DNA from: an uncultured Eubacteriales bacterium
GTDB lineage: Bacteria; Bacillota; Clostridia; Lachnospirales; Lachnospiraceae
Assembly: GCA_900314525.1 (NCBI GenBank)
Contig: OMVN01000016.1
Coordinates: 1-51,322 of the forward strand
Direction of reading: 5' to 3'
Length of the DNA: 51,322 nucleotides
Shown: piece by piece, positions 31,752 through 41,154 of the stretch
Numbering within the stretch: the first letter of the stretch is position 1
Layout of the letters: every line of letters begins with the position of its first letter
The notes under the pieces: generated by a model
The model's input: only the letters and a program-made list of their open reading frames with translations
The model's database searches: none
What the model was told of the DNA's origin: nothing
Position numbers and translations under genes: made by a program

Positions 31752-33263
31752 GTGGCGGATAAGAACAATGCAAATATAGGATTTGAAAAAGAAATATGGG
31801 ATGCGGCTTGTGTGCTTTGGGGACATATTCCAGCAGCAGAGTACAGAAAAGTTATTATTGGACTTATTTTCTTAAGATACATATCAGCGGCATTTGATAA
31901 AAGATATAAAGAACTAGTAGAAGAGGGCGATGGTTTCGAGGATGATATAGATGCATATACTATGGAAAATGTTTTCTTTGTACCAGAGGAAGCAAGATGG
32001 TCAACTATAGCATCTGCAGCTCATACTCCGGAAATTGGAATTGTGATTGATAATGCTATGAAGGCTATTGAGGCAGACAATAAAAGTTTGAAAGATGTTC
32101 TTCCAAAGAATTATGCTAGTCCAGATTTGGATAAAAGAATCCTAGGTGATGTTGTTGATATATTTACAAATAGTATTGACATGACTGATACAGAAGCAAA
32201 TGAAGATTTGCTTGGAAGAACATATGAGTATTGTATTGCACAGTTTGCAGAAAAAGAAGGTGCAAGTGGCGGAGAATTTTATACTCCTTCAAGTATAGTA
32301 AAAACATTGGTTGAAATCTTAAAACCATTTGAAAACTGCCGCGTATATGATCCTTGTTGTGGTTCGGGTGGAATGTTTGTACAGAGTGCAAAGTTCATTC
32401 AAGCACATAATGGAAAAAGGGGAGCAATTTCTGTATATGGTCAGGAAGCGAATGCTGATACATGGAAAATGGCAAAAATGAATATGGCAATCAGAGGCAT
32501 AGATGCTAACTTTGGACCATATCAGGCAGATACATTTACGAATGATTGGCATAAGACTTTAAAAGCAGATTTTATACTTGCGAATCCTCCATTCAACTAT
32601 CATCCATGGAATCAAGAAAGGTTGGTTGATGATCCACGTTGGAAATATGGTCTGCCACCAGCTGGGAATGCCAACTATGCATGGATTCAACATATGATTC
32701 ATCACTTGGCACCGAATGGAAAGATAGGATTAGTACTTGCAAATGGGGCATTATCTACACAAACAAGTGGAGAAGGAGAGATTCGTAAGAAGATAATTGA
32801 AGATGATAAAATTGAAGGTATTATTGCGATGCCTACGCAGCTTTTCTATAGTGTAACTATTCCGGTAACTTTGTGGTTTATTACAGATAACAAAAAACAG
32901 AAGGGCAAAACATTATTTATAGATGCTCGTAATATGGGGCATATGGTAGACAGAAAACATAGAGATCTGGATGATGAGAAAGATATTAAATTATTGGCAG
33001 ATACTTTTGAAGCATTTCAGAAAGGAATATTGGAGGAGAAAAAAGGCTTCTGTGCAATAGCGACGATAGAGGATATAGCTAAACAGGATTATATCTTGAC
33101 TCCGGGAAGATATGTTGGGATTGCGGAACAGAAAGATGATGGGGAACCATTTGAGGAAAAGATGGGAAGACTTACATCAGAACTGTCGGATATGTTTGCA
33201 AAATCACATGAACTAGAGGATGAAATAAGAAAAAAATTGGGGGCGATTGGGTATGAGATATAA
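31752..33263 (+). CDS. hsdM: Type I methyltransferase HsdM, system 2
   Basis: 503-aa N6-adenine methyltransferase subunit. It has an N-terminal helical domain (KRYKELVEEGDGFEDDID), the SAM motif DPCCGSGGMF, the catalytic NPPFNYHPW, and a C-terminal helical tail that contacts HsdS. GTG start at 31752 after AGAGAGG. It overlaps the first hsdS fragment by 11 bases. It is clearly diverged from system 1 HsdM, so the two systems are not a recent duplication. Confidence 0.92.
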   Translation: MADKNNANIGFEKEIWDAACVLWGHIPAAEYRKVIIGLIFLRYISAAFDKRYKELVEEGDGFEDDIDAYTMENVFFVPEEARWSTIASAAHTPEIGIVIDNAMKAIEADNKSLKDVLPKNYASPDLDKRILGDVVDIFTNSIDMTDTEANEDLLGRTYEYCIAQFAEKEGASGGEFYTPSSIVKTLVEILKPFENCRVYDPCCGSGGMFVQSAKFIQAHNGKRGAISVYGQEANADTWKMAKMNMAIRGIDANFGPYQADTFTNDWHKTLKADFILANPPFNYHPWNQERLVDDPRWKYGLPPAGNANYAWIQHMIHHLAPNGKIGLVLANGALSTQTSGEGEIRKKIIEDDKIEGIIAMPTQLFYSVTIPVTLWFITDNKKQKGKTLFIDARNMGHMVDRKHRDLDDEKDIKLLADTFEAFQKGILEEKKGFCAIATIEDIAKQDYILTPGRYVGIAEQKDDGEPFEEKMGRLTSELSDMFAKSHELEDEIRKKLGAIGYEI

Positions 33264-33753
33264 ATTGCAAGATATAGTAGATGTTACTATGGGACAATCG
33301 CCAAAATCTGAATTTTATAATAATGATGGAGAGGGTGTTCCATTTTTGCAAGGAAATAGAACATTTGGTTTCAAATATCCGACATTTGATACATTTACAA
33401 CGATGGTTACAAAAGAAGCAAAAGCTGGCGATGTAATAATGAGCGTTAGGGCTCCTGTTGGAGATTTAAATATAACACCTGTTGATATATGTTTGGGAAG
33501 AGGTGTTTGCTCTCTAAGAATGAAAAATGGGAATCAGGAATTTTTGTATTACATGATGAAATACTATATTCCACAGTTAATGAACAAGGAAAGTGGAACA
33601 GTATTTGGTTCTGTGAATCGAAATGATATTATTGGATTAGAAATTGATATACCTAATGATGCAGAAAAACAAGAGAAAATTTCAAGATTTTTGTCAATGC
33701 TTGATGAAAAAATTCAAATTAATAATAAGATAAACAATAATTTAGCGGCTTAG
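33253..33753 (+). CDS. hsdS: Truncated HsdS, single recognition domain (shufflon 5' half A)
   Basis: Only the N-terminal recognition domain and first conserved helix are present: MRYKLQDIVDVTMGQSPKSE to FLSMLDEKIQINNKINNNL. Then the inverted-repeat sequence adds AA and a stop. At the matching point the complete hsdS at 35523 reads INNNLEQQAS and goes on. Inverting 33731-34423 would join this half to the silent half at 33750-34397 and restore a two-domain HsdS. In the present orientation it may make a half-subunit. It overlaps hsdM, so this is the expression position. Confidence 0.85.
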   Translation: MRYKLQDIVDVTMGQSPKSEFYNNDGEGVPFLQGNRTFGFKYPTFDTFTTMVTKEAKAGDVIMSVRAPVGDLNITPVDICLGRGVCSLRMKNGNQEFLYYMMKYYIPQLMNKESGTVFGSVNRNDIIGLEIDIPNDAEKQEKISRFLSMLDEKIQINNKINNNLAA

Positions 33754-33788
33754 AGGTCAAGGTCAGAGACATCAAGCTCGCCGGACAT
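33731..33788 (+). repeat. Shufflon inverted repeat, left copy (site 1)
   Basis: 58 bases identical to the reverse complement of 36684-36741. The outer 15 (TAAACAATAATTTAG) recur at all four sites. The rest encodes the shared HsdS C-terminus (SGELDVSDLDL and stop) on the minus strand. Confidence 0.9.
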
Positions 33789-34397
33789 CAGACGGGGTAA
33801 CAAAGTATCTCTGATTTCTGTTAAACGCTTTGATTCTCTTGTTGTTGATAGAATCATAGAAAATATGGGCTTCATTATTTTATCAAACTCATTCAGTACT
33901 TCATCTGTTGGTAAGTTAGTGGGATAATTCTTTAGAATATCCGTTTTAAGGTTTGTAAATACACTGCCATTTCCAAGTGCAACCAAATTATCTCGGATGT
34001 GCTTGAAATACAGATATAAGTATTCGTTTGAAAACTTGGATGACGGAAAATATAGCCAACCATCGTGTATGCAAGTATCTATGTCAAGAATTTTGGGTAA
34101 ACCGGGTGTGGCACTATTTGATAAAACCAAGCTTCCTGCTTTGAGAAAGACAGTTTTTTTCAATCCTTCTTCAATGATGTATTCTTTGATTTCACTGATG
34201 AATGGTGAGCTAATACCAGTTGCATCGGATATTTTCAACCAATGTAACCCACTATCCGACAAGAAGTTTTGAATAGGACGAGGAGAGCCGCCACGCTTTA
34301 TTTCAACAAAATCGCCAAGTACACCATATTTCCAAGTGCTTGGAACTTGTCCGTCAAATGGTTCATAGTCAATGAACCAAGATTTGAAAAGTGCCAT
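33750..34397 (-). CDS. hsdS: Silent HsdS 3'-half cassette (half C)
   Basis: On the opposite strand to its neighbours, this encodes the second recognition domain and tail conserved region of an HsdS: ALFKSWFIDYEPFDGQVPS to LPRLMSGELDVSDLDL. The frame is open upstream of the nominal ATG through NNNLEQQA, i.e. through site 2, so it lacks its own start and is a storage cassette. Inversion between sites 1 and 2 would fuse it in frame to the 33253 fragment; inversion between sites 2 and 3 would fuse it to the first half of the 35523 gene. Confidence 0.82.
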   Translation of the reverse strand: MALFKSWFIDYEPFDGQVPSTWKYGVLGDFVEIKRGGSPRPIQNFLSDSGLHWLKISDATGISSPFISEIKEYIIEEGLKKTVFLKAGSLVLSNSATPGLPKILDIDTCIHDGWLYFPSSKFSNEYLYLYFKHIRDNLVALGNGSVFTNLKTDILKNYPTNLPTDEVLNEFDKIMKPIFSMILSTTRESKRLTEIRDTLLPRLMSGELDVSDLDL

Positions 34398-34398
34398 T

Positions 34399-34423
34399 GC
34401 TTGCTGCTCTAAATTATTGTTTA
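34399..34423 (-). repeat. Shufflon recombination site 2
   Basis: The reverse complement starts TAAACAATAATTTAGAGCAG and is identical over 25 bases to site 3 at 36046-36070. It encodes the conserved NNNLEQQA linker between the two recognition domains. Confidence 0.85.
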
Positions 34424-34525
34424 GCTTATAACATATCCCATTACTTCCGTGGGTGGCGGGAGTTAATATCGGGGGACTTCCGCCCCATAGTCGTTCTCTA
34501 TTAAATATTCGAAGGAGAATTGACT

Positions 34526-35509
34526 GTGAAACAAGATTTAATCAAAGATGTTATTCAGGGTATGTTACCTTTCCTGAATAACGCGCAAAATGAGAAGCTG
34601 CAAGAAGTGTTGCAATATACCCTTGCAAAGTATGAGGTAACTGAGAAGCAAAACCAAGAGAATAACTCGGAACAGAACTATGTGGAGCTGTTCTTATCGG
34701 CAAAGCGAATTGAGGGCTGTTCCGAGAAATCTCTTAAATACTACAAGGCTACTATTGAAGCAATGCTCGATGAGTTGCACAAAAATGTCAAGCACATTGT
34801 AACGGACGACATTCGAGGATACCTGACCGAATATCAGGAAAAGAAGAAGTCAAGTAAGGTTACGATAGACAATATTCGCCGTATCCTTTCCAGCTTCTTC
34901 TCTTGGCTGGAGGACGAGGATTACATACTGAAAAGCCCGGTCAGACGAATACATAGAGTTAAGACCGGCACAAACATCAAGGAAACCTATTCCGATGAAG
35001 CGTTGGAACTTATGAGGGATAACTGCACGGAGTTGAGAGACTTGGCCATTATTGATATGCTTGCTTCAACGGGTATGCGTGTCGGAGAAATGGTATTGCT
35101 TAACCGAAATGATATTGATTTCAACGAGAGAGAATGTATCGTGTTCGGTAAAGGCAGCAAGGAACGAGTGGTTTATTTTGACGCTCGAACTAAGATACAT
35201 TTGCAGAATTACTTAGAGAGCAGAACGGACGACAATCCGGCACTATTCGTGTCGTTGAAATCGCCACATGAAAGGCTGAAAATCGGTGGAGTTGAGGTTC
35301 GTCTGCGTGAATTTGGAAAGCAATTAGGGTTGCAAAAAGTACACCCGCATAAGTTCAGGCGTACACTTGCAACAATGGCAATAGATAAAGGAATGCCCAT
35401 TGAGCAACTACAACAGCTCTTGGGGCATAGGAAGATAGATACGACCTTGCAATACGCAATGGTCAAACAGAGCAATGTTAAGATTGCTCATCGAAAATAT
35501 ATAGGGTAG
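34526..35509 (+). CDS. Tyrosine recombinase, presumed HsdS invertase
   Basis: 327-aa XerC/D-type recombinase: an N-terminal SAM-like domain (KRIEGCSEKSLKYYKATIEA), then catalytic Arg in STGMRVGEMVLL, HxxR in HPHKFRRTLA, and H...Y in GHRKIDTTLQYAM. It lies inside the hsdS locus, between the silent half and the complete hsdS, like the recombinases of known phase-variable type I loci. It is only distantly related to the element integrases. GTG 34526 lies eight bases after GAAGGAG; the TTG at 34520 is too close. Confidence 0.88.
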   Translation: MKQDLIKDVIQGMLPFLNNAQNEKLQEVLQYTLAKYEVTEKQNQENNSEQNYVELFLSAKRIEGCSEKSLKYYKATIEAMLDELHKNVKHIVTDDIRGYLTEYQEKKKSSKVTIDNIRRILSSFFSWLEDEDYILKSPVRRIHRVKTGTNIKETYSDEALELMRDNCTELRDLAIIDMLASTGMRVGEMVLLNRNDIDFNERECIVFGKGSKERVVYFDARTKIHLQNYLESRTDDNPALFVSLKSPHERLKIGGVEVRLREFGKQLGLQKVHPHKFRRTLATMAIDKGMPIEQLQQLLGHRKIDTTLQYAMVKQSNVKIAHRKYIG

Positions 35510-35522
35510 AGAGGATTATTAT

Positions 35523-36722
35523 ATGGCTGAATGGATTGAATGTAAAATTTCTGATATTGGAACTGTTGTAGGTGGTGCTACTCCTTCAACGAAAAAAACT
35601 GAATATTATGAAGGGGGAAATATCGCTTGGATAACCCCGAAAGATTTAGCTACATTCAGTGGTCGTTATATTCAACGAGGCGAAAGAAATATTACCGAAA
35701 TCGGTTTGAAAAGTTGTTCCACCCAGCTTTTACCTCAAAACACAATTCTGTTTTCTTCAAGGGCGCCAATAGGATATGCAGCTATTGCGGCAAATGAAGT
35801 ATGTACTAATCAGGGATTTAAGAGTGTTATTCCGAATGAAGATACTGACCCACTTTTCCTATTTTATTTACTCAAATACAATAAAGATAGGATTGAAGGT
35901 ATGGGGAGCGGTACGACTTTCAAAGAAGTGTCTGGCAATACTATGAAGAACATAGTAGTAAATGTACCTGCTGATAAAGAGATTCAGACAAAGATTGCTT
36001 CGTTATTGGGGGCTATTGATGACAAAATTGAAGAAAATGAGAGGATAAACAATAATTTAGAGCAGCAAGCGAGCACGCTTTTTAACAGTGCCATTGAACA
36101 ATCTACTTCAGTTGTTTATGCTGAACTGGGTTCGTTGGCAGATGTGAAAGGCGGAAAACGCTTACCTAAGGGCATAAATTTGGTTACTGCTCCAAACAAA
36201 CATCCATATATCCGAGTTCGTGACCTCAACAACACTGTATTTGCTTCACTTTCTAATAATTATGAGTATGTCGATGATGAAACACAACAAAGTATTTCCC
36301 GATATATCGTGTCAACAGGTGATTTACTAATATCTATCGTCGGAACCATCGGCTTAACCGCAATTGTTGACCATACATTGAATAAAGCGAACTTAACTGA
36401 AAACTGTGTCAAACTTACTAACCTTAAAAATGTTACACCCGAGTATCTATTGTTATTTCTGCGTTCTTCTCAAGGAGTAGAAGCAATATCTAAAGGTACT
36501 GTTGGTGCAGTGCAGCTAAAGCTACCCATAAAAAACATTCAGTCCATTGCCGTGCCATTGCTGTGTGACGAAGAGCTTCTACCTCTGAATGAAACACTAT
36601 CGGCTATCTTTTCTCAGATTTCTGCCAATATTGTTGAAATGAAGCAGTTAGCTGATATACGAGACACATTATTACCAGAACTTATGTCCGGCGAGCTTGA
36701 TGTCTCTGACCTTGACCTCTAA
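35523..36722 (+). CDS. hsdS: Complete HsdS, system 2 (halves B and D)
   Basis: 399 aa with two recognition domains. The first is residues about 1-150, starting MAEWIECKISDIGTVVGGAT. A conserved helix follows (KIASLLGAIDDKIEENERINN), then the second domain (about 195-350) and a tail helix ending LPELMSGELDVSDLDL. The linker lies on site 3 and the end on site 4, so the second domain (half D) can be swapped out. Its own ribosome site (GAGAGG) lies just before ATG 35523, 13 bases after the recombinase stop. This is the only intact HsdS in the present arrangement. Confidence 0.9.
   Translation: MAEWIECKISDIGTVVGGATPSTKKTEYYEGGNIAWITPKDLATFSGRYIQRGERNITEIGLKSCSTQLLPQNTILFSSRAPIGYAAIAANEVCTNQGFKSVIPNEDTDPLFLFYLLKYNKDRIEGMGSGTTFKEVSGNTMKNIVVNVPADKEIQTKIASLLGAIDDKIEENERINNNLEQQASTLFNSAIEQSTSVVYAELGSLADVKGGKRLPKGINLVTAPNKHPYIRVRDLNNTVFASLSNNYEYVDDETQQSISRYIVSTGDLLISIVGTIGLTAIVDHTLNKANLTENCVKLTNLKNVTPEYLLLFLRSSQGVEAISKGTVGAVQLKLPIKNIQSIAVPLLCDEELLPLNETLSAIFSQISANIVEMKQLADIRDTLLPELMSGELDVSDLDL
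36046..36070 (+). repeat. Shufflon recombination site 3
   Basis: 25 bases identical to site 2 in opposite orientation, inside the linker codons of the complete hsdS. The first 15 are shared with sites 1 and 4. Confidence 0.85.
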
Positions 36723-36741
36723 GCCGCTAAATTATTGTTTA
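36684..36741 (-). repeat. Shufflon inverted repeat, right copy (site 4)
   Basis: Reverse complement of 33731-33788 over 58 bases. It covers the end of the complete hsdS and 19 bases beyond its stop. Confidence 0.9.
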
Positions 36742-36767: not shown

Positions 36768-37946
36768 ATGGAGATTAACGAAAAATTAGAACATTTAACA
36801 GAGACGCAAATTGAAGAAGTTGTTACTATGTATATGGATAAATCAATCAAAATATCGGATATACTTAGTAAATATAATATAGATGTAAAACCTGGGGGAT
36901 TATTGAAGATTTTACCACCAGTAAGAACTAATGATGTATGCGTGATTTGTGGAGAGTTCTTGTATAAAAATATAGAAGCAAGAACTGCGTATTCGTATAG
37001 CGGTGAACAGAGTGATAGGTTTTGTTTGAATTGTGGTCACAAAGAGTATGCAAATAATGGGTGGAGAAGAAAAAAGTGCGATTGTAATGGTTGTAAAGCT
37101 ATTGAGATGATGGAGTATGAGCGCAAGAAAAAAGAAATCAGAAAAACATATGAAAAAGAAAATGATAGAATTGATTTTGCAGAATTAATTCTGGCAGATC
37201 AGGTTAAATTAATATATTTGTTGTTCAATAATTCGTTTCATAATACTTCACAGATTGCACCAATGGAAGTGAAAGAAAATTGGATCGAATATATTAATCG
37301 GATGGTTGAAATCAAAGCAATATCCGTTTCACCGGAAAGTGAAGTAGAAGCTTTTTGCGAAGATGACTTTCCGAACAAGTATTATGTTGACAAGGTTCAT
37401 TATGATGTAAATGTTATTATTGATGAAGCAACATTGCACAAAATTAATAAAAATACCTATTTCTTGGAATGCAGTGAGGACGAAGAATTAATCACATTAT
37501 TTAAAGAATATATATACAATGATTTGATTATAAAATTTGAAGAAATGTTGGAAGCTAGAAGACTTCAATTGCATATTTCAGAGAATGCTAATAATAGGTT
37601 TATTGAATTGATAGACAAAATAAGCTATACGCAAATATTAGCTTTGTGCAATCGTGTTGCTGTATTTTTCTCAGATAAAGTTTTGATTGGAGATATGACA
37701 AAGAGTGTTGCGAAAAATGCGGCATTGTTGAATGTTTCAAAGTTTTATGATAGAGCAGTGGAATCGGAATGGACTTTGAATCATGCTGAAATTGATTATG
37801 TAGGTAGAGAATTAAACTTTTTCATTGAGAAGGTATTGAATAAAGATATTACAATATTGAAGGACGTGGCTTCAGTAGAAAATTTGAAAAATTGGAGTAA
37901 ACGAGAAATAGATTATAGTAAAAGAATTGGCTATGCAGAAGATTAG
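36768..37946 (+). CDS. Zinc-ribbon protein inside type I operon, unknown function
   Basis: 392 aa, family not recognised. The N-terminal 50 residues look like a small helical DNA-binding unit (IEEVVTMYMDKSIKISDIL). Cysteine pairs VCVICG, FCLNCG and CDCNGC (residues about 58-115) could bind one or two zinc ions. The rest is helical with an aromatic middle (LIYLLFNNSFHN). It lies between hsdS and hsdR and its end overlaps the open frame before hsdR, so it is co-expressed with system 2. It may modulate restriction or be an independent defence gene carried in the operon. Confidence 0.6.
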   Translation: MEINEKLEHLTETQIEEVVTMYMDKSIKISDILSKYNIDVKPGGLLKILPPVRTNDVCVICGEFLYKNIEARTAYSYSGEQSDRFCLNCGHKEYANNGWRRKKCDCNGCKAIEMMEYERKKKEIRKTYEKENDRIDFAELILADQVKLIYLLFNNSFHNTSQIAPMEVKENWIEYINRMVEIKAISVSPESEVEAFCEDDFPNKYYVDKVHYDVNVIIDEATLHKINKNTYFLECSEDEELITLFKEYIYNDLIIKFEEMLEARRLQLHISENANNRFIELIDKISYTQILALCNRVAVFFSDKVLIGDMTKSVAKNAALLNVSKFYDRAVESEWTLNHAEIDYVGRELNFFIEKVLNKDITILKDVASVENLKNWSKREIDYSKRIGYAED

Positions 37947-37959
37947 TGAGGTGATACAC

Positions 37960-40900
37960 ATGTCCACAACATTTACAGAAGCAGACTACGAAAATTCCAT
38001 AATAGAGTTATTCCAAAATATGGGATACCAATATGTTTACGGACCAGATATCGAACGAGATTTCTACAGTCCATTATACAAGGATGTACTTATAGAATAC
38101 ATACATAGACTAAATCCTTCTCTACCAGAGGAGGCTATTTCTGATGCAATGTACAAGTTACAGAATTATGAAAATGGAGACCTTGTACAGAAAAATGAAG
38201 TGTTTATGGACTATATTCAGCATGGCATTCCTGTCAGATATACGGCCAATGGAGAACAGTGTTCTTCATTGGCATACATTGTGGATTATAAAAATGTGGA
38301 CAATAATTCTTTTATCGTAGCAAATCAGTGGACATTTATTGAAAATAGCAACAAGAGACCTGATATCATCTTGTTTATAAACGGACTTCCAGTTGTTTTA
38401 ATAGAATTGAAATCACCTTCCAGAGAAGAAACAGATGCATCAGAAGGATATTTGCAGATTAGAAATTACATCCATGAGATTCCTTCTATGTTTATCTATA
38501 ATTGTATTAGCGTTATTAGCGATCAGTTGACATCAAAGGCAGGTACAATTACTTCAGGTGAAGACCGTTTTATGGAATGGAAAACGAAAGATGGGAATTA
38601 TGAGAATACGCAGTATGCTCAGTTTGATACATTTTTTGAAGGTATGTTTGACAGAGCAAGATTGCTGGATATTATCAAAAACTTTGTCTGTTTTTCAGAT
38701 GAGGGATTGAAGAAGTACAAGATACTAGCGGGATATCACCAGTATTTTGCGGTAAATAAGGCTGTTCAGATGGCAAAAAAGGCGACAGTTACAGATGGAA
38801 AGGGTGGTGTTTTCTGGCATACACAAGGCTCTGGAAAATCTTTATCAATGGTATTTTATGCTCATTTGTTGCAGGAGGCATTGGACAGCCCGACTATAGT
38901 TGTAATTACGGATAGAAATGATTTGGATGATCAGCTTTTTGGGCAGTTTGCAAAATGTAGTTCATTTTTGAGACAGGTTCCAGTTCATGCAACATGCAGA
39001 AAACTAGGACAAAGTTCAACAAAGGATGATATTGGATTAAAGGATTGGCTGAATGGCAGACAAGCTAATGGAATTATATTTACCACAATGCAAAAGTTTG
39101 AAGAATCAGAAGAACCATTATCTGAAAGACGAAACATTATTGTAATGGCGGATGAGGCTCATCGTGGACAATATGGTTTAAAAGAAAAAATAAAAATGGT
39201 AGAAAATGAAGATGGAGAAAAAGAGGCTAAGATTGTAACTGGGACAGCCAGGATTATTAGAAATTGCCTTCCAAATGCTACATATGTGGGATTTACTGGT
39301 ACGCCTATATCTATGAAGGATAGGAGTACAAGAGAAGTCTTTGGAGATTATATTGATATATATGATATGACGCAGGCGGTTGAAGATGGAGCTACAAGAC
39401 CAGTTTATTACGAAAGCAGAGTTATCAAGTTAAAGCTGGATGAAGCAACACTCAAATTAATTGATGCAGAATATGATTTAATGGCATCAAATGCAGATGC
39501 AGAGGTTGTAGAAAAGAGTAAAAAACAATTAGGACAAATGGAGGCAATACTTGGTAATGACAAGACAATAGACTCATTAGTATGTGATATTTTAGATCAT
39601 TATGACAACAATAGAGCGAATCTGCTTACAGGAAAAGCTATGATTGTTGCATATTCACGCTCTATTGCTATGAAAATATATAAGAGAATTTTGGAACTTC
39701 GACCGACATGGACAGAAAAAGTCGGGGTTGTTATGACTGATAACAACAAAGATCCAGAAGAATGGAAAGAGATTATTGGAAATAAACGTCACAAGGATGA
39801 GATGGCAAAGAAGTTCAAGGACAATGATAGTCCACTTAAAATTGCGATAGTAGTTGATATGTGGCTTACAGGATTTGATGTGCCAGCACTTGCTACAATG
39901 TATGTTTATAAGCCTATGAAGGGTTATAATCTTATGCAGGCAATAGCCAGAGTTAATCGAGTCTTTAAAGATAAGGAAGGTGGACTTGTTGTTGACTATG
40001 TAGGTATTGCATCTGCACTCAAAGAGGCAATGAATGATTATACTTCACGTGATAAGAAAAACTATGGAGATACTGATGTTGCGAAGGTTGCATATCCGAA
40101 ATTCTTAGAAAAACTTTCAATATGTCAGGATTTCTTCCATGGATATGATTATTCTAAGTTTATGACAGGCTCAGATTTGGAAAGATCAAAAGCCATTAGC
40201 GGAGGCGTAAACTTTATAGTTGGTGTTAATAAAGAAAAAGAAAGAACAGAGTTCTTAAAGGAAGCACTACTTTTAAAACAGGCACTGTCATTATGTTCAT
40301 CAATGGTAGAGGAATCACTTCGCGTCGAAGCCGCCTTTTTCGAATCTGTCAGAGTACTTGTAATGCGACTTATGAATCAGGGACAGGGAAAGAAAATATC
40401 CCTTCCAGAAATGAACGCCAGAATAAATGAATTGCTAAAGGCAAGTATAAAGAGTGATGGTGTAATCAATCTGTTCTCTGATGTATCGCAAAATTTCTCA
40501 CTCTTTGATCCGAAGTTTTTAGAAGAAATATCAAAGATGAAAGAGAAAAACCTCGCAGTGGAATTACTAAAAAAACTGATTGCAGAGCAGGTTCAAATAT
40601 ATCGAAGAACTAATGTTGTAAAGTCTGAAAAGTTTAGTGAAATCATCCAGCAAACCATGAATAGATATCTTAATGGTATGCTTACGAATGAACAGGTAAT
40701 AGAAGAACTTCTGAATTTGGCTAAGCAGATTGCAGCAGCAAAGGAGGAAGGAGATAAGCTGGGCCTTACAGCGGATGAATTGGCATTCTATGATGCTCTT
40801 ACAAAACCGCAGGCTATTAAGGACTTTTATGAAAACGAAGAACTTATAGCAATTACTAAGGAGCTAGCTGACACACTTCGTAAAAATCGTACAATCGACT

Positions 40901-41154
40901 GGCAAAAGCGTGATTCAGCACGGGCTAAAATGCGGATGATGATTAAGAAACTACTAAAAAAACATAAATATCCACCAGAAGGCATGGATGACGCAGTACA
41001 GACTGTTATGACTCAATGTGAACTTTGGACGGATAACAATGACATGGGGCGAGAAGAAAATGTAGTGGATTTTCATAGCAGTGTCTCCTATGTGAATGAG
41101 GATAGAAGTACGATGATGGTAGCTGAGTCACAGACGAAATACGGACAAGAATAG
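37960..41154 (+). CDS. hsdR: Type I restriction endonuclease/translocase HsdR, system 2
   Basis: 1064 aa. PD-(D/E)xK nuclease region: NKRPDIILFINGLPVVLIELK. Motor: Walker A HTQGSGKSLSM, DEAH-type box MADEAHRGQYG, GFTGTP, and LMQAIARVNRVFKD. The C-terminal helical region matches other HsdR proteins. ATG 37960 follows GAGGTGAT; a longer frame from 37927 lies in the end of the previous gene. A DUF262 gene follows 12 bases later. Confidence 0.92.
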   Translation: MSTTFTEADYENSIIELFQNMGYQYVYGPDIERDFYSPLYKDVLIEYIHRLNPSLPEEAISDAMYKLQNYENGDLVQKNEVFMDYIQHGIPVRYTANGEQCSSLAYIVDYKNVDNNSFIVANQWTFIENSNKRPDIILFINGLPVVLIELKSPSREETDASEGYLQIRNYIHEIPSMFIYNCISVISDQLTSKAGTITSGEDRFMEWKTKDGNYENTQYAQFDTFFEGMFDRARLLDIIKNFVCFSDEGLKKYKILAGYHQYFAVNKAVQMAKKATVTDGKGGVFWHTQGSGKSLSMVFYAHLLQEALDSPTIVVITDRNDLDDQLFGQFAKCSSFLRQVPVHATCRKLGQSSTKDDIGLKDWLNGRQANGIIFTTMQKFEESEEPLSERRNIIVMADEAHRGQYGLKEKIKMVENEDGEKEAKIVTGTARIIRNCLPNATYVGFTGTPISMKDRSTREVFGDYIDIYDMTQAVEDGATRPVYYESRVIKLKLDEATLKLIDAEYDLMASNADAEVVEKSKKQLGQMEAILGNDKTIDSLVCDILDHYDNNRANLLTGKAMIVAYSRSIAMKIYKRILELRPTWTEKVGVVMTDNNKDPEEWKEIIGNKRHKDEMAKKFKDNDSPLKIAIVVDMWLTGFDVPALATMYVYKPMKGYNLMQAIARVNRVFKDKEGGLVVDYVGIASALKEAMNDYTSRDKKNYGDTDVAKVAYPKFLEKLSICQDFFHGYDYSKFMTGSDLERSKAISGGVNFIVGVNKEKERTEFLKEALLLKQALSLCSSMVEESLRVEAAFFESVRVLVMRLMNQGQGKKISLPEMNARINELLKASIKSDGVINLFSDVSQNFSLFDPKFLEEISKMKEKNLAVELLKKLIAEQVQIYRRTNVVKSEKFSEIIQQTMNRYLNGMLTNEQVIEELLNLAKQIAAAKEEGDKLGLTADELAFYDALTKPQAIKDFYENEELIAITKELADTLRKNRTIDWQKRDSARAKMRMMIKKLLKKHKYPPEGMDDAVQTVMTQCELWTDNNDMGREENVVDFHSSVSYVNEDRSTMMVAESQTKYGQE

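Follow-up and report, generated by a model that had tools for sequence, protein, structure and literature searches.

Type I restriction-modification (R-M) systems shuffled by a recombinase are a known kind, and the locus described here, with four recombination sites and two hsdS genes of which as a rule exactly one is complete, is a variant of it. The locus lies in a DNA stretch of 51,322 nucleotides (the window; contig OMVN01000016.1 of GenBank assembly GCA_900314525.1) from an uncultured Eubacteriales bacterium of the Lachnospiraceae, the window being a single contig of a 72-contig, 2.36 Mb genome. It contains two first halves of hsdS (A and B), two second halves (C and D) and a tyrosine recombinase gene (Table 1), and recombinase-driven shuffling of the second halves as cassettes probably lets the R-M enzyme recognize one of four DNA sequences. 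Shufflons of the R64 type are similar in that one tyrosine recombinase chooses among several invertible segments, but they combine a fixed N-terminal with several C-terminal pilin parts and have neither a specificity subunit nor a layout with two starts. Comparisons with the hsdS loci below draw on excerpts of the cited reports. The pneumococcal cod/ivr locus (SpnIII) is likewise a type I R-M locus with its own tyrosine recombinase (PsrA) and a short repeat of 15 bp, and PsrA-driven inversion of hsdS was shown in vitro; it has, however, one functional hsdS, two that act as sequence sources and three repeat classes (15, 298, and 85 bp; PMC7096588). In contrast, the window has a single core word at four sites and two first halves with their own start codons, and a complete gene, B-D, stands behind the recombinase where loci of the PsrA/cod type have one expressed hsdS and source-only copies. 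In Listeria monocytogenes CC8 and CC4 an integrase/recombinase also lies between two hsdS, with four specificities and variants among near-identical strains, but there the hsdS are oppositely oriented, two different repeat pairs are used and the second hsdS of CC4 is inactive (PMC4783014, PMC7662400), whereas in the window both hsdS have the same direction and one word serves all sites. In the pneumococcal tvr locus (SpnIV) hsdS fragments are relocated by a tyrosine recombinase in two exchanges, one after the other, with direct repeats, a circular intermediate and TvrA with TvrT, and an RNA hairpin acts as an attenuator that limits the recombinase and the shuffling (PMC6265443). A locus of that type would have direct repeats as its sole exchange sites; in the window opposed sites flank each cassette, direct site pairs (1 with 3, 2 with 4) being present as well, and the leader RNA of the recombinase is a pseudoknot with a Shine-Dalgarno hairpin.

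The four-site layout itself is found on Lactococcus plasmids NZ_CP016746.2 (strain JM1, here pJM1A) and NZ_CP016745.2 (strain JM2, here pJM2A), which, judging by strain names and neighboring accession numbers, are probably the megaplasmids pMPJM1 and pMPJM2 described with a “type I RM shufflon”. Their recombinase is 64% identical to that of the window and their arrangement differs from one plasmid to the other; spacer and halves are different from those of the window. Neither a mechanism nor a state rule is given in the excerpt of the megaplasmid paper, where pJM1A denotes a different plasmid. A systematic study of gene-altering inversions from 2023 may contain this layout. The loci in excerpts of other literature either pair an expressed hsdS with a silent one or shuffle by direct repeats, the remaining excerpts being surveys. 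In those on pneumococcus, Listeria, S. suis and the general field we found neither the exactly-one rule nor this leader stated, and the excerpt of a “domain shuffling” paper (PMC4420470) had no mention of this layout. In a REBASE survey the species that carry inverted-repeat hsdS include members of Ruminococcus and Lactobacillus; with its lower limit of 20 bases that survey would detect the 25- and 58-base repeats of the window but may overlook loci in which the core alone is common (PMC7394358). A survey of invertons contains one group in which restriction S subunits are associated with a tyrosine recombinase and mobilization genes (PMC11892184), and this group is perhaps of the same kind as the window locus.

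A 15-base word, TAAACAATAATTTAG, occurs in exactly four exact copies in the window, in the order +, -, +, -, and the same four are the only copies in the whole 2.36 Mb genome at up to one mismatch. A preliminary description of the locus, made from the sequence of the window, had reported this word with two copies in each orientation, a 58-base perfect inverted repeat, a 25-base identity of sites 2 and 3, and sites located at the linker codons of HsdS, all of which hold: the repeat arms (33731-33788 and 36684-36741) are identical at 58 of 58 bases with no extension either way, the identity of sites 2 and 3 spans exactly 25 bases, and the reading frame is.NNNLAA followed by a stop at sites 1 and 4 and.NNNLEQQA at sites 2 and 3. 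Degenerate matches (up to three mismatches) were not enriched, with seven against a shuffle mean of 8.2, and the evidence therefore consists of the four exact copies and their frame context. Each second half is a cassette whose front site lies in the HsdS linker and whose stop codon is closely followed by an opposed copy, the built-in stop being the back side of the cassette. The present state, with A cut short, B-D intact and C silent, was also read correctly, as judged by the open reading frames (ORFs) and site frames, and the identification of hsdS halves with their own recombinase agrees with Pfam Methylase_S matches on A, C, and B-D; hsdM, hsdR, the recombinase gene and a second variable hsdS with inverted repeats are all at the one locus.

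The sites and the truncation stop had been considered specific to this locus, a view that relatives overturn: comparison of their sequences indicates that the four-site layout is common to many of them across many genera. Homologues of the recombinase came from named genomes (the best 80 of at least 562 relatives), from genomes at the level of family, class, and phylum (62 of 397, 19 of 391, and 6 of 398 with a homologue at set thresholds), from viral contigs (25 loci) and from plasmids (13 records). A core word particular to each locus was present in at least three copies in 107 of 170 loci bearing a recognizable recombinase (copies included, plasmids apart), 100 of them among the 118 loci with at least 68% recombinase identity; the 18 loci at that level without the word were left uncounted, several being short or at a contig edge and three (L013, L068, L161) having one altered site. 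Removal of copies left 92 loci, 84 with all four sites and eight with fewer. State was read from the length of the open frame upstream and downstream of each site and was resolved cleanly in 76 of the 84, the others having masked letters or broken cassettes (Lsss 3, NNsL 2, NssL 1, LsLL 1, sLLL 1).

Exactly one hsdS was complete in 74 of these 76 loci. In 37, including the window, B was complete and A cut short (B-type), in another 37 the reverse was true (A-type), and both genes were complete only in L066 and neither only in L042. Were each cassette to flip independently half of the time, the probability of two or fewer parallel loci among 76 would be 4e-20, a figure that overstates the case because the loci are related. 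Among 75 loci in which its orientation is known, the block of recombinase and B pointed the same way as hsdM in 71 and was reversed in four (L057, L071, L101, L117), as it was in L104, where three sites were found; a forward block together with one complete hsdS was seen in 69 of the 75. On the recombinase tree the A/B state is distributed at random, with 27 changes in each group against shuffled means of 25.6 and 25.5 (26 by a two-state count), which implies that the state is short-lived or has been mixed by horizontal transfer. An orientation fixed in all relatives, which the preliminary description had named as the finding that would speak against it, was not what their sequences held, as A-type and B-type loci are equally numerous and Lactococcus plasmids differ in arrangement while their compared flanks are identical.

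The cut-short gene usually ends, in the listed loci, in a seven-residue reading closed by a stop after the site. This regularity would suit a function for the truncated half A (~168 residues, with most of the first linker helix), namely self-pairing to yield a fifth, palindromic specificity, and engineered EcoDXXI half S subunits do act as doubles, according to an excerpt of that work (PMC3874165). However, the tail may persist merely as the back of the cassette, and function is not readable from sequence; we regard a fifth specificity as unlikely.

In the mechanism that we propose as very probable, the first halves keep their positions, A behind hsdM and B behind the recombinase, and cassettes C and D each lie between two opposed copies of one site, such that a first half facing the front of a cassette gives a full HsdS and one facing the back is ended by the stop after INNNLAA. 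Exchange by the tyrosine recombinase at the six-base spacer would cause cassettes to change slot and direction, giving A-C, A-D, B-C or B-D. Four sites would permit 16 linear arrangements if cassettes, block and left-right order all change, and only the four just named would combine a forward block with exactly one complete gene; the anatomy suggests that they would be linked by double exchanges (sites 1-2 with 3-4, 1-4 with 2-3, and 1-3 with 2-4), never by single ones. This non-random use of four states out of sixteen is an uncommon feature of the layout, as is the conserved leader RNA. No series of single inversions could avoid both-on, both-off or reversed intermediates, so that either selection removes these or the cassettes swap pairwise. 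Inversion between sites 2 and 3 had been predicted to form B-C, and it would, but it would also turn the block against hsdM, a state seen in four of 75 loci; inversion between 1 and 2, proposed to make A-C, or between 3 and 4, proposed to truncate B, would alone give two or no complete HsdS, seen in two of 76. The rarity of these states means that one-at-a-time inversion by itself does not fit the relatives, and independent single inversions without selection are ruled out by the state counts.

A paired exchange of the two cassettes would conserve both their opposed orientation and the forward recombinase block, and we lean toward it, at roughly even odds, over selection acting on single inversions as the way in which the exactly-one state is kept. 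Two crossovers that together swap cassettes resemble recombinase-mediated cassette exchange. The fuller proposal, of a four-site, two-crossover exchange whose rate is set by a pseudoknot leader of a new class gating the ribosome site of the recombinase, is tentative, and we place it somewhat short of an even chance. Nearly even in our estimate is the alternative that single inversions occur about equally often at any two opposed sites and that selection maintains one complete HsdS and a block in the operon direction. Products expected of single exchanges do exist, among them the four reversed blocks, the two parallel loci, a plasmid locus (L. salivarius BNS11) with both genes off, and a likely deletion product described below. 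Moreover, a scan of the + strand from 33742 to 35032 detected no sigma-70-like promoter at its threshold, so that transcription entering from hsdM perhaps serves the leader and a reversed block may silence the recombinase and B, perhaps also hsdR. Selection would, however, have to be strong in two separate respects, and the near absence of the both-on state is not obviously selected, as that state retains a working enzyme. One HsdS would also remain when the block is reversed and A is on, yet among A-on loci the block is forward in 33 and reversed in three, and in the change between A-p and A-q in the Lactococcus plasmids (below) the block kept its forward direction and the compared flanks stayed identical.

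Over the 74 loci with one complete hsdS the core consists of TAAA, six spacer bases and TTTA, with both arms exact in 276 of 296 sites. The spacer is identical across all four sites in 73 of the 74, and its bases 1, 2, and 4 vary between loci (identity 0.45-0.72). A tyrosine recombinase that exchanges strands across a spacer needs that spacer to be common within a locus and leaves it free to differ between loci. One spacer per locus would join front and back sites into a single exchanging set, and the variable third residue encoded over the spacer (N, D, K, E or other) indicates that the protein tolerates spacer change. An exchange of like with like, in which 5′-type sites (LEQQ flank) recombine only with 5′-type and 3′-type (LAA-stop) only with 3′-type, which would keep opposed cassettes stable and cost parallel ones the recombinase by deletion, is suggested by the longer identity that like sites share in the window (25 and 58 bases) and by the flanks of 3′ sites, which are more alike within loci than between them. 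Spacers nevertheless agree within a locus across the two types, so that the site classes seem to exchange; in addition, free inversion would reverse the block half of the time (four of 75 seen), and A-type and B-type loci could not interconvert. We therefore consider this reading quite improbable, and recombinase deletion is not favored as the cause of the missing parallel states, one clear recombinase-less product (L173) having been found in a search limited to spacer CAATAA, the exact word of which occurs in 13 of 397 family genomes. That the rearrangements are homologous recombination between repeats, with the recombinase as a passenger, is more improbable still: what relatives have in common is a core of 14 bases, its arms nearly fixed and its spacer particular to each locus, and 14 bases are short for homologous exchange. 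The 58-base repeat could nonetheless support such exchange, and some pneumococcal hsdS inversion does not require PsrA, according to the excerpt (PMC7096588). Because all loci were found via the recombinase, its presence in them is in itself no evidence.

Signs of movement came from clustering the halves of the 76 resolved loci, counting only clusters common to more than one locus. Second-half clusters spanned both slots in 29 of 36 cases at 60% identity, 26 of 34 at 70%, 15 of 21 at 80% and 4 of 7 at 90%, and first-half clusters mixed A and B in 12 of 25, 9 of 22, 3 of 19 and 0 of 11 cases at the same levels, which suggests that slot changes are frequent for cassettes and confined to longer time scales for first halves. 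Clusters pure at 85% had spoken for a strict rule under which A and B keep their places for good; it was dropped in view of the clusters mixed at 60-80%. Loci L083 and L084 have A, B and the left cassette in common (at least 85% identity), yet one is A-type and the other B-type. Four Lactococcus plasmids have the layout with core TAAA-TCATCA-TTTA and a recombinase 64% identical to that of the window, and in the four flank stretches that the comparison covers they are identical (hsdM part 1400/1400, A 480/480, block from site 2 to site 3 1580/1580, after site 4 986/986). Their cassettes p (635 bases) and q (650 bases) stand in different places: in pJM2A and pUC073A A-p is complete and q silent, in pUCCL627F A-q is complete and p silent with the block still forward, and in pJM1A (L188, 3776-6682) B-p is complete, a second, silent p is identical at 635 of 635 bases and q is absent from the locus. 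Each has exactly one complete hsdS, in three arrangements altogether. One cassette of pJM1A seems to have been copied over the other, which would need exchange between two molecules. The other five plasmid loci with sites include E. faecium pW142 and L. salivarius Ren and ZLS006, all B-type, BNS11, and an irregular locus in strain 2D, where A is complete and two hypothetical genes occupy the right slot.

Taken at the strength of these comparisons, the layout is a widespread specificity selector that appears to be active at least in a Lactococcus relative. The layout, the nearly exclusive exactly-one states and rearrangement between identical compared flanks can be read from the sequences of relatives; that this recombinase would be the catalyst, the spacer the point of exchange and the four proteins readers of different DNA is our inference, as are all of these for the window strain, in which the recombinase can probably reshuffle the half-genes. 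Several points weigh against the shuffling as we propose it. Horizontal transfer between species could help to randomize states on the tree, the exactly-one rule is broken in L042, L066 and BNS11, and exchange within one molecule cannot make the duplicate cassette of pJM1A. The evidence from a common background comes from a relative of 64% recombinase identity with another spacer (TCATCA), and the window locus is known in one arrangement. As sites were accepted at up to one mismatch to the locus's own word, spacer agreement within loci is partly built in, a fairer figure being the four sites found in 84 of 92 loci. Lastly, L173 (G060:C83, 945-1643), which has a complete hsdS and both sites in a genome with no recombinase match at 1e-40, is a likely deletion product and, with L063 and L080, suggests that single exchanges between direct sites also occur. 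Loci L063, L080, and L118 have additional sites at which readings of B or of a cassette recur, which looks like a duplication of block-plus-cassette units between direct sites.

The stretch upstream of the recombinase is strikingly conserved among relatives, and comparison supports a covarying pseudoknot with a Shine-Dalgarno hairpin in about 80 leaders. In the window (positions read by eye) the P1 helix (34443-34448/34458-34463) has a nine-base loop, six central bases of which pair with a stretch 20-25 bases downstream to form the pseudoknot (34451-34456/34480-34485); in the third hairpin (34489-34498/34515-34525) UUCUC is paired with the Shine-Dalgarno region (GGAG, 34514-34517) up to the start codon. 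P1 and pseudoknot were parsed in 82 of 98 distinct leaders at 68% recombinase identity or more, one of the 82 parses (L053) being doubtful, and in none of 45 below; the parser, which first requires GGAG and UUCUC, succeeded on 100 of 1640 shuffles of the upstream stretches of the 82 that keep composition only. In a varied selection of 36 leaders the paired cells amount to 92.9%, versus 83.5% in shuffled sets (0 of 500 as high) and 39-63% in slid controls, and double changes occur in six of six pairs in P1, four of six in the pseudoknot and two of ten in the third helix. The leader RNA probably limits translation of the recombinase by hiding its ribosome site, for which the RNA of the tvr locus is, by analogy, a precedent in kind and not in structure. 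Of 4227 Rfam models none matched the leaders of 12 relatives at the gathering threshold or window positions 34400-34560 at E<=10; nine matched the leader stretch of L107 below threshold (best E 0.3). The STAXI motif, described in an excerpt as pseudoknot repeats near XerDC genes (PMC2864571), is a lead for the leader, which matched no Rfam family. Model R1 matched 21 of 397 family genomes (E<=0.01), 14 of them with a recombinase homologue (in the list of 62 genomes, which reaches down to distant homologues); in the other seven the match was followed by recombinase remnants (G339, G198), by the start of a protein similar by eye at a contig end (G078), or by no recombinase (G176, G370, G270, G333). 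P1 begins at most 20 bases from site 2 in 51 of 74 loci and in most others hundreds of bases away; L042, L062, L064, L071, L079 and others have about 300 bases or more of extra sequence between site 2 and leader, which in some loci holds a start codon behind a Shine-Dalgarno-like sequence.

Table 1. Features of the shuffled type I R-M locus in the window.
Feature	Position	Strand	Basis
hsdM, type I methyltransferase subunit	31752..33263	+	Pfam N6_Mtase E 6e-107, HsdM_N
hsdS first half A, overlaps hsdM end	33253..33753	+	ORF; Methylase_S E 1e-20; ends INNNLAA-stop just past site 1
Recombination site 1, core TAAA-CAATAA-TTTA	33731..33745	+	exact 15-mer copy
Left arm, 58-base perfect inverted repeat	33731..33788	.	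site, stop and 3′ end common to second halves
Cassette X, silent second half C (ORF 33750-34397)	33746..34408	-	ORF; Methylase_S E 3e-10
Recombination site 2	34409..34423	-	exact 15-mer copy
Recombinase leader RNA	34441..34528	+	comparative structure; model R1 70.5 bits (window leader among model rows)
Tyrosine recombinase	34526..35509	+	Pfam Phage_integrase E 2e-31; NCBIfam XerA_Arch (NF040815) 243 bits, cut-off 220
hsdS first half B, own ATG	35523..36045	+	ORF; Pfam
Recombination site 3, within B-D linker	36046..36060	+	exact 15-mer copy
Cassette Y, second half D, currently joined to B	36061..36722	+	ORF 35523-36722; B-D 399 aa; Methylase_S E 2e-44
Right arm, 58-base inverted repeat	36684..36741	.	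sequence comparison of arms
Recombination site 4, four bases past D stop	36727..36741	-	exact 15-mer copy
392-aa ORF between hsdS and hsdR	36768..37946	+	locus member by position only
hsdR, type I restriction subunit	37927..41154	+	NCBIfam TIGR00348 E 3e-175

For the recombinase we preferred the GTG at 34526 as start on account of its Shine-Dalgarno spacing, the listed ORF beginning with TTG at 34520. The protein scores above the curated cut-off of a profile for XerA/XerC-like recombinases and has solved relatives in 4a8e (XerC-like) and 5hxy (XerA). The 392-residue ORF before hsdR had no match in Pfam, NCBIfam or PADLOC; in Lactococcus pJM2A a DUF3800 protein occupies the equivalent position. 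The region 9229-46083 has the look of a defense island, with reverse transcriptases (9229; 43554, Drt2-like), a SIR2 domain protein (14102), an AAA/OLD-like ATPase (18756), GmrSD (41167) and Schlafen-AlbA_2 (45319), and these stand beside mobilization genes (relaxase 29221, NikA-like 28874, actin-like 27017, integrase 25411).

A recombinase identity of ~67% was rejected as the boundary of the layout, the four-site word being present in L128, L159, L169, L179 and in plasmid loci at 64-66%. Of the 28 long loci below 68%, four have the word, and 20 lack it and carry a complete hsdS-like ORF oriented like the recombinase. In L124, L148, L149, L153, L160 and others of this group a complete hsdS and a half hsdS lie on the same strand around the recombinase, with direct repeats of 16-17 bases in L148 and L153 and of 8-12 bases in the other eight checked; such loci may have a direct-repeat, tvr-like layout. 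Plasmid hits in Fusobacterium (L180) and L. sakei (L191), both without the four-site word, and in Methanosphaera (L190), with no hsd gene annotated nearby, were not used, and H11, a further version of the latter plasmid, was also left out of the comparison.

Random switching of methylation specificity creates epigenetic subpopulations and changeable barriers to phages. What the relatives add is a short, countable set of states that is used strongly non-randomly across many genera, in which the identity of the complete gene changes freely and two or none are complete almost never. The layout poses the question of whether a simple tyrosine recombinase could achieve mutual exclusion by pairing its exchanges, without a regulator, and the leader RNA raises a second, namely what is sensed and whether the switching rate is set by it. 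The natural sets of sites, with different spacers and the same arms, may also offer orthogonal sites for laboratory recombination tools.

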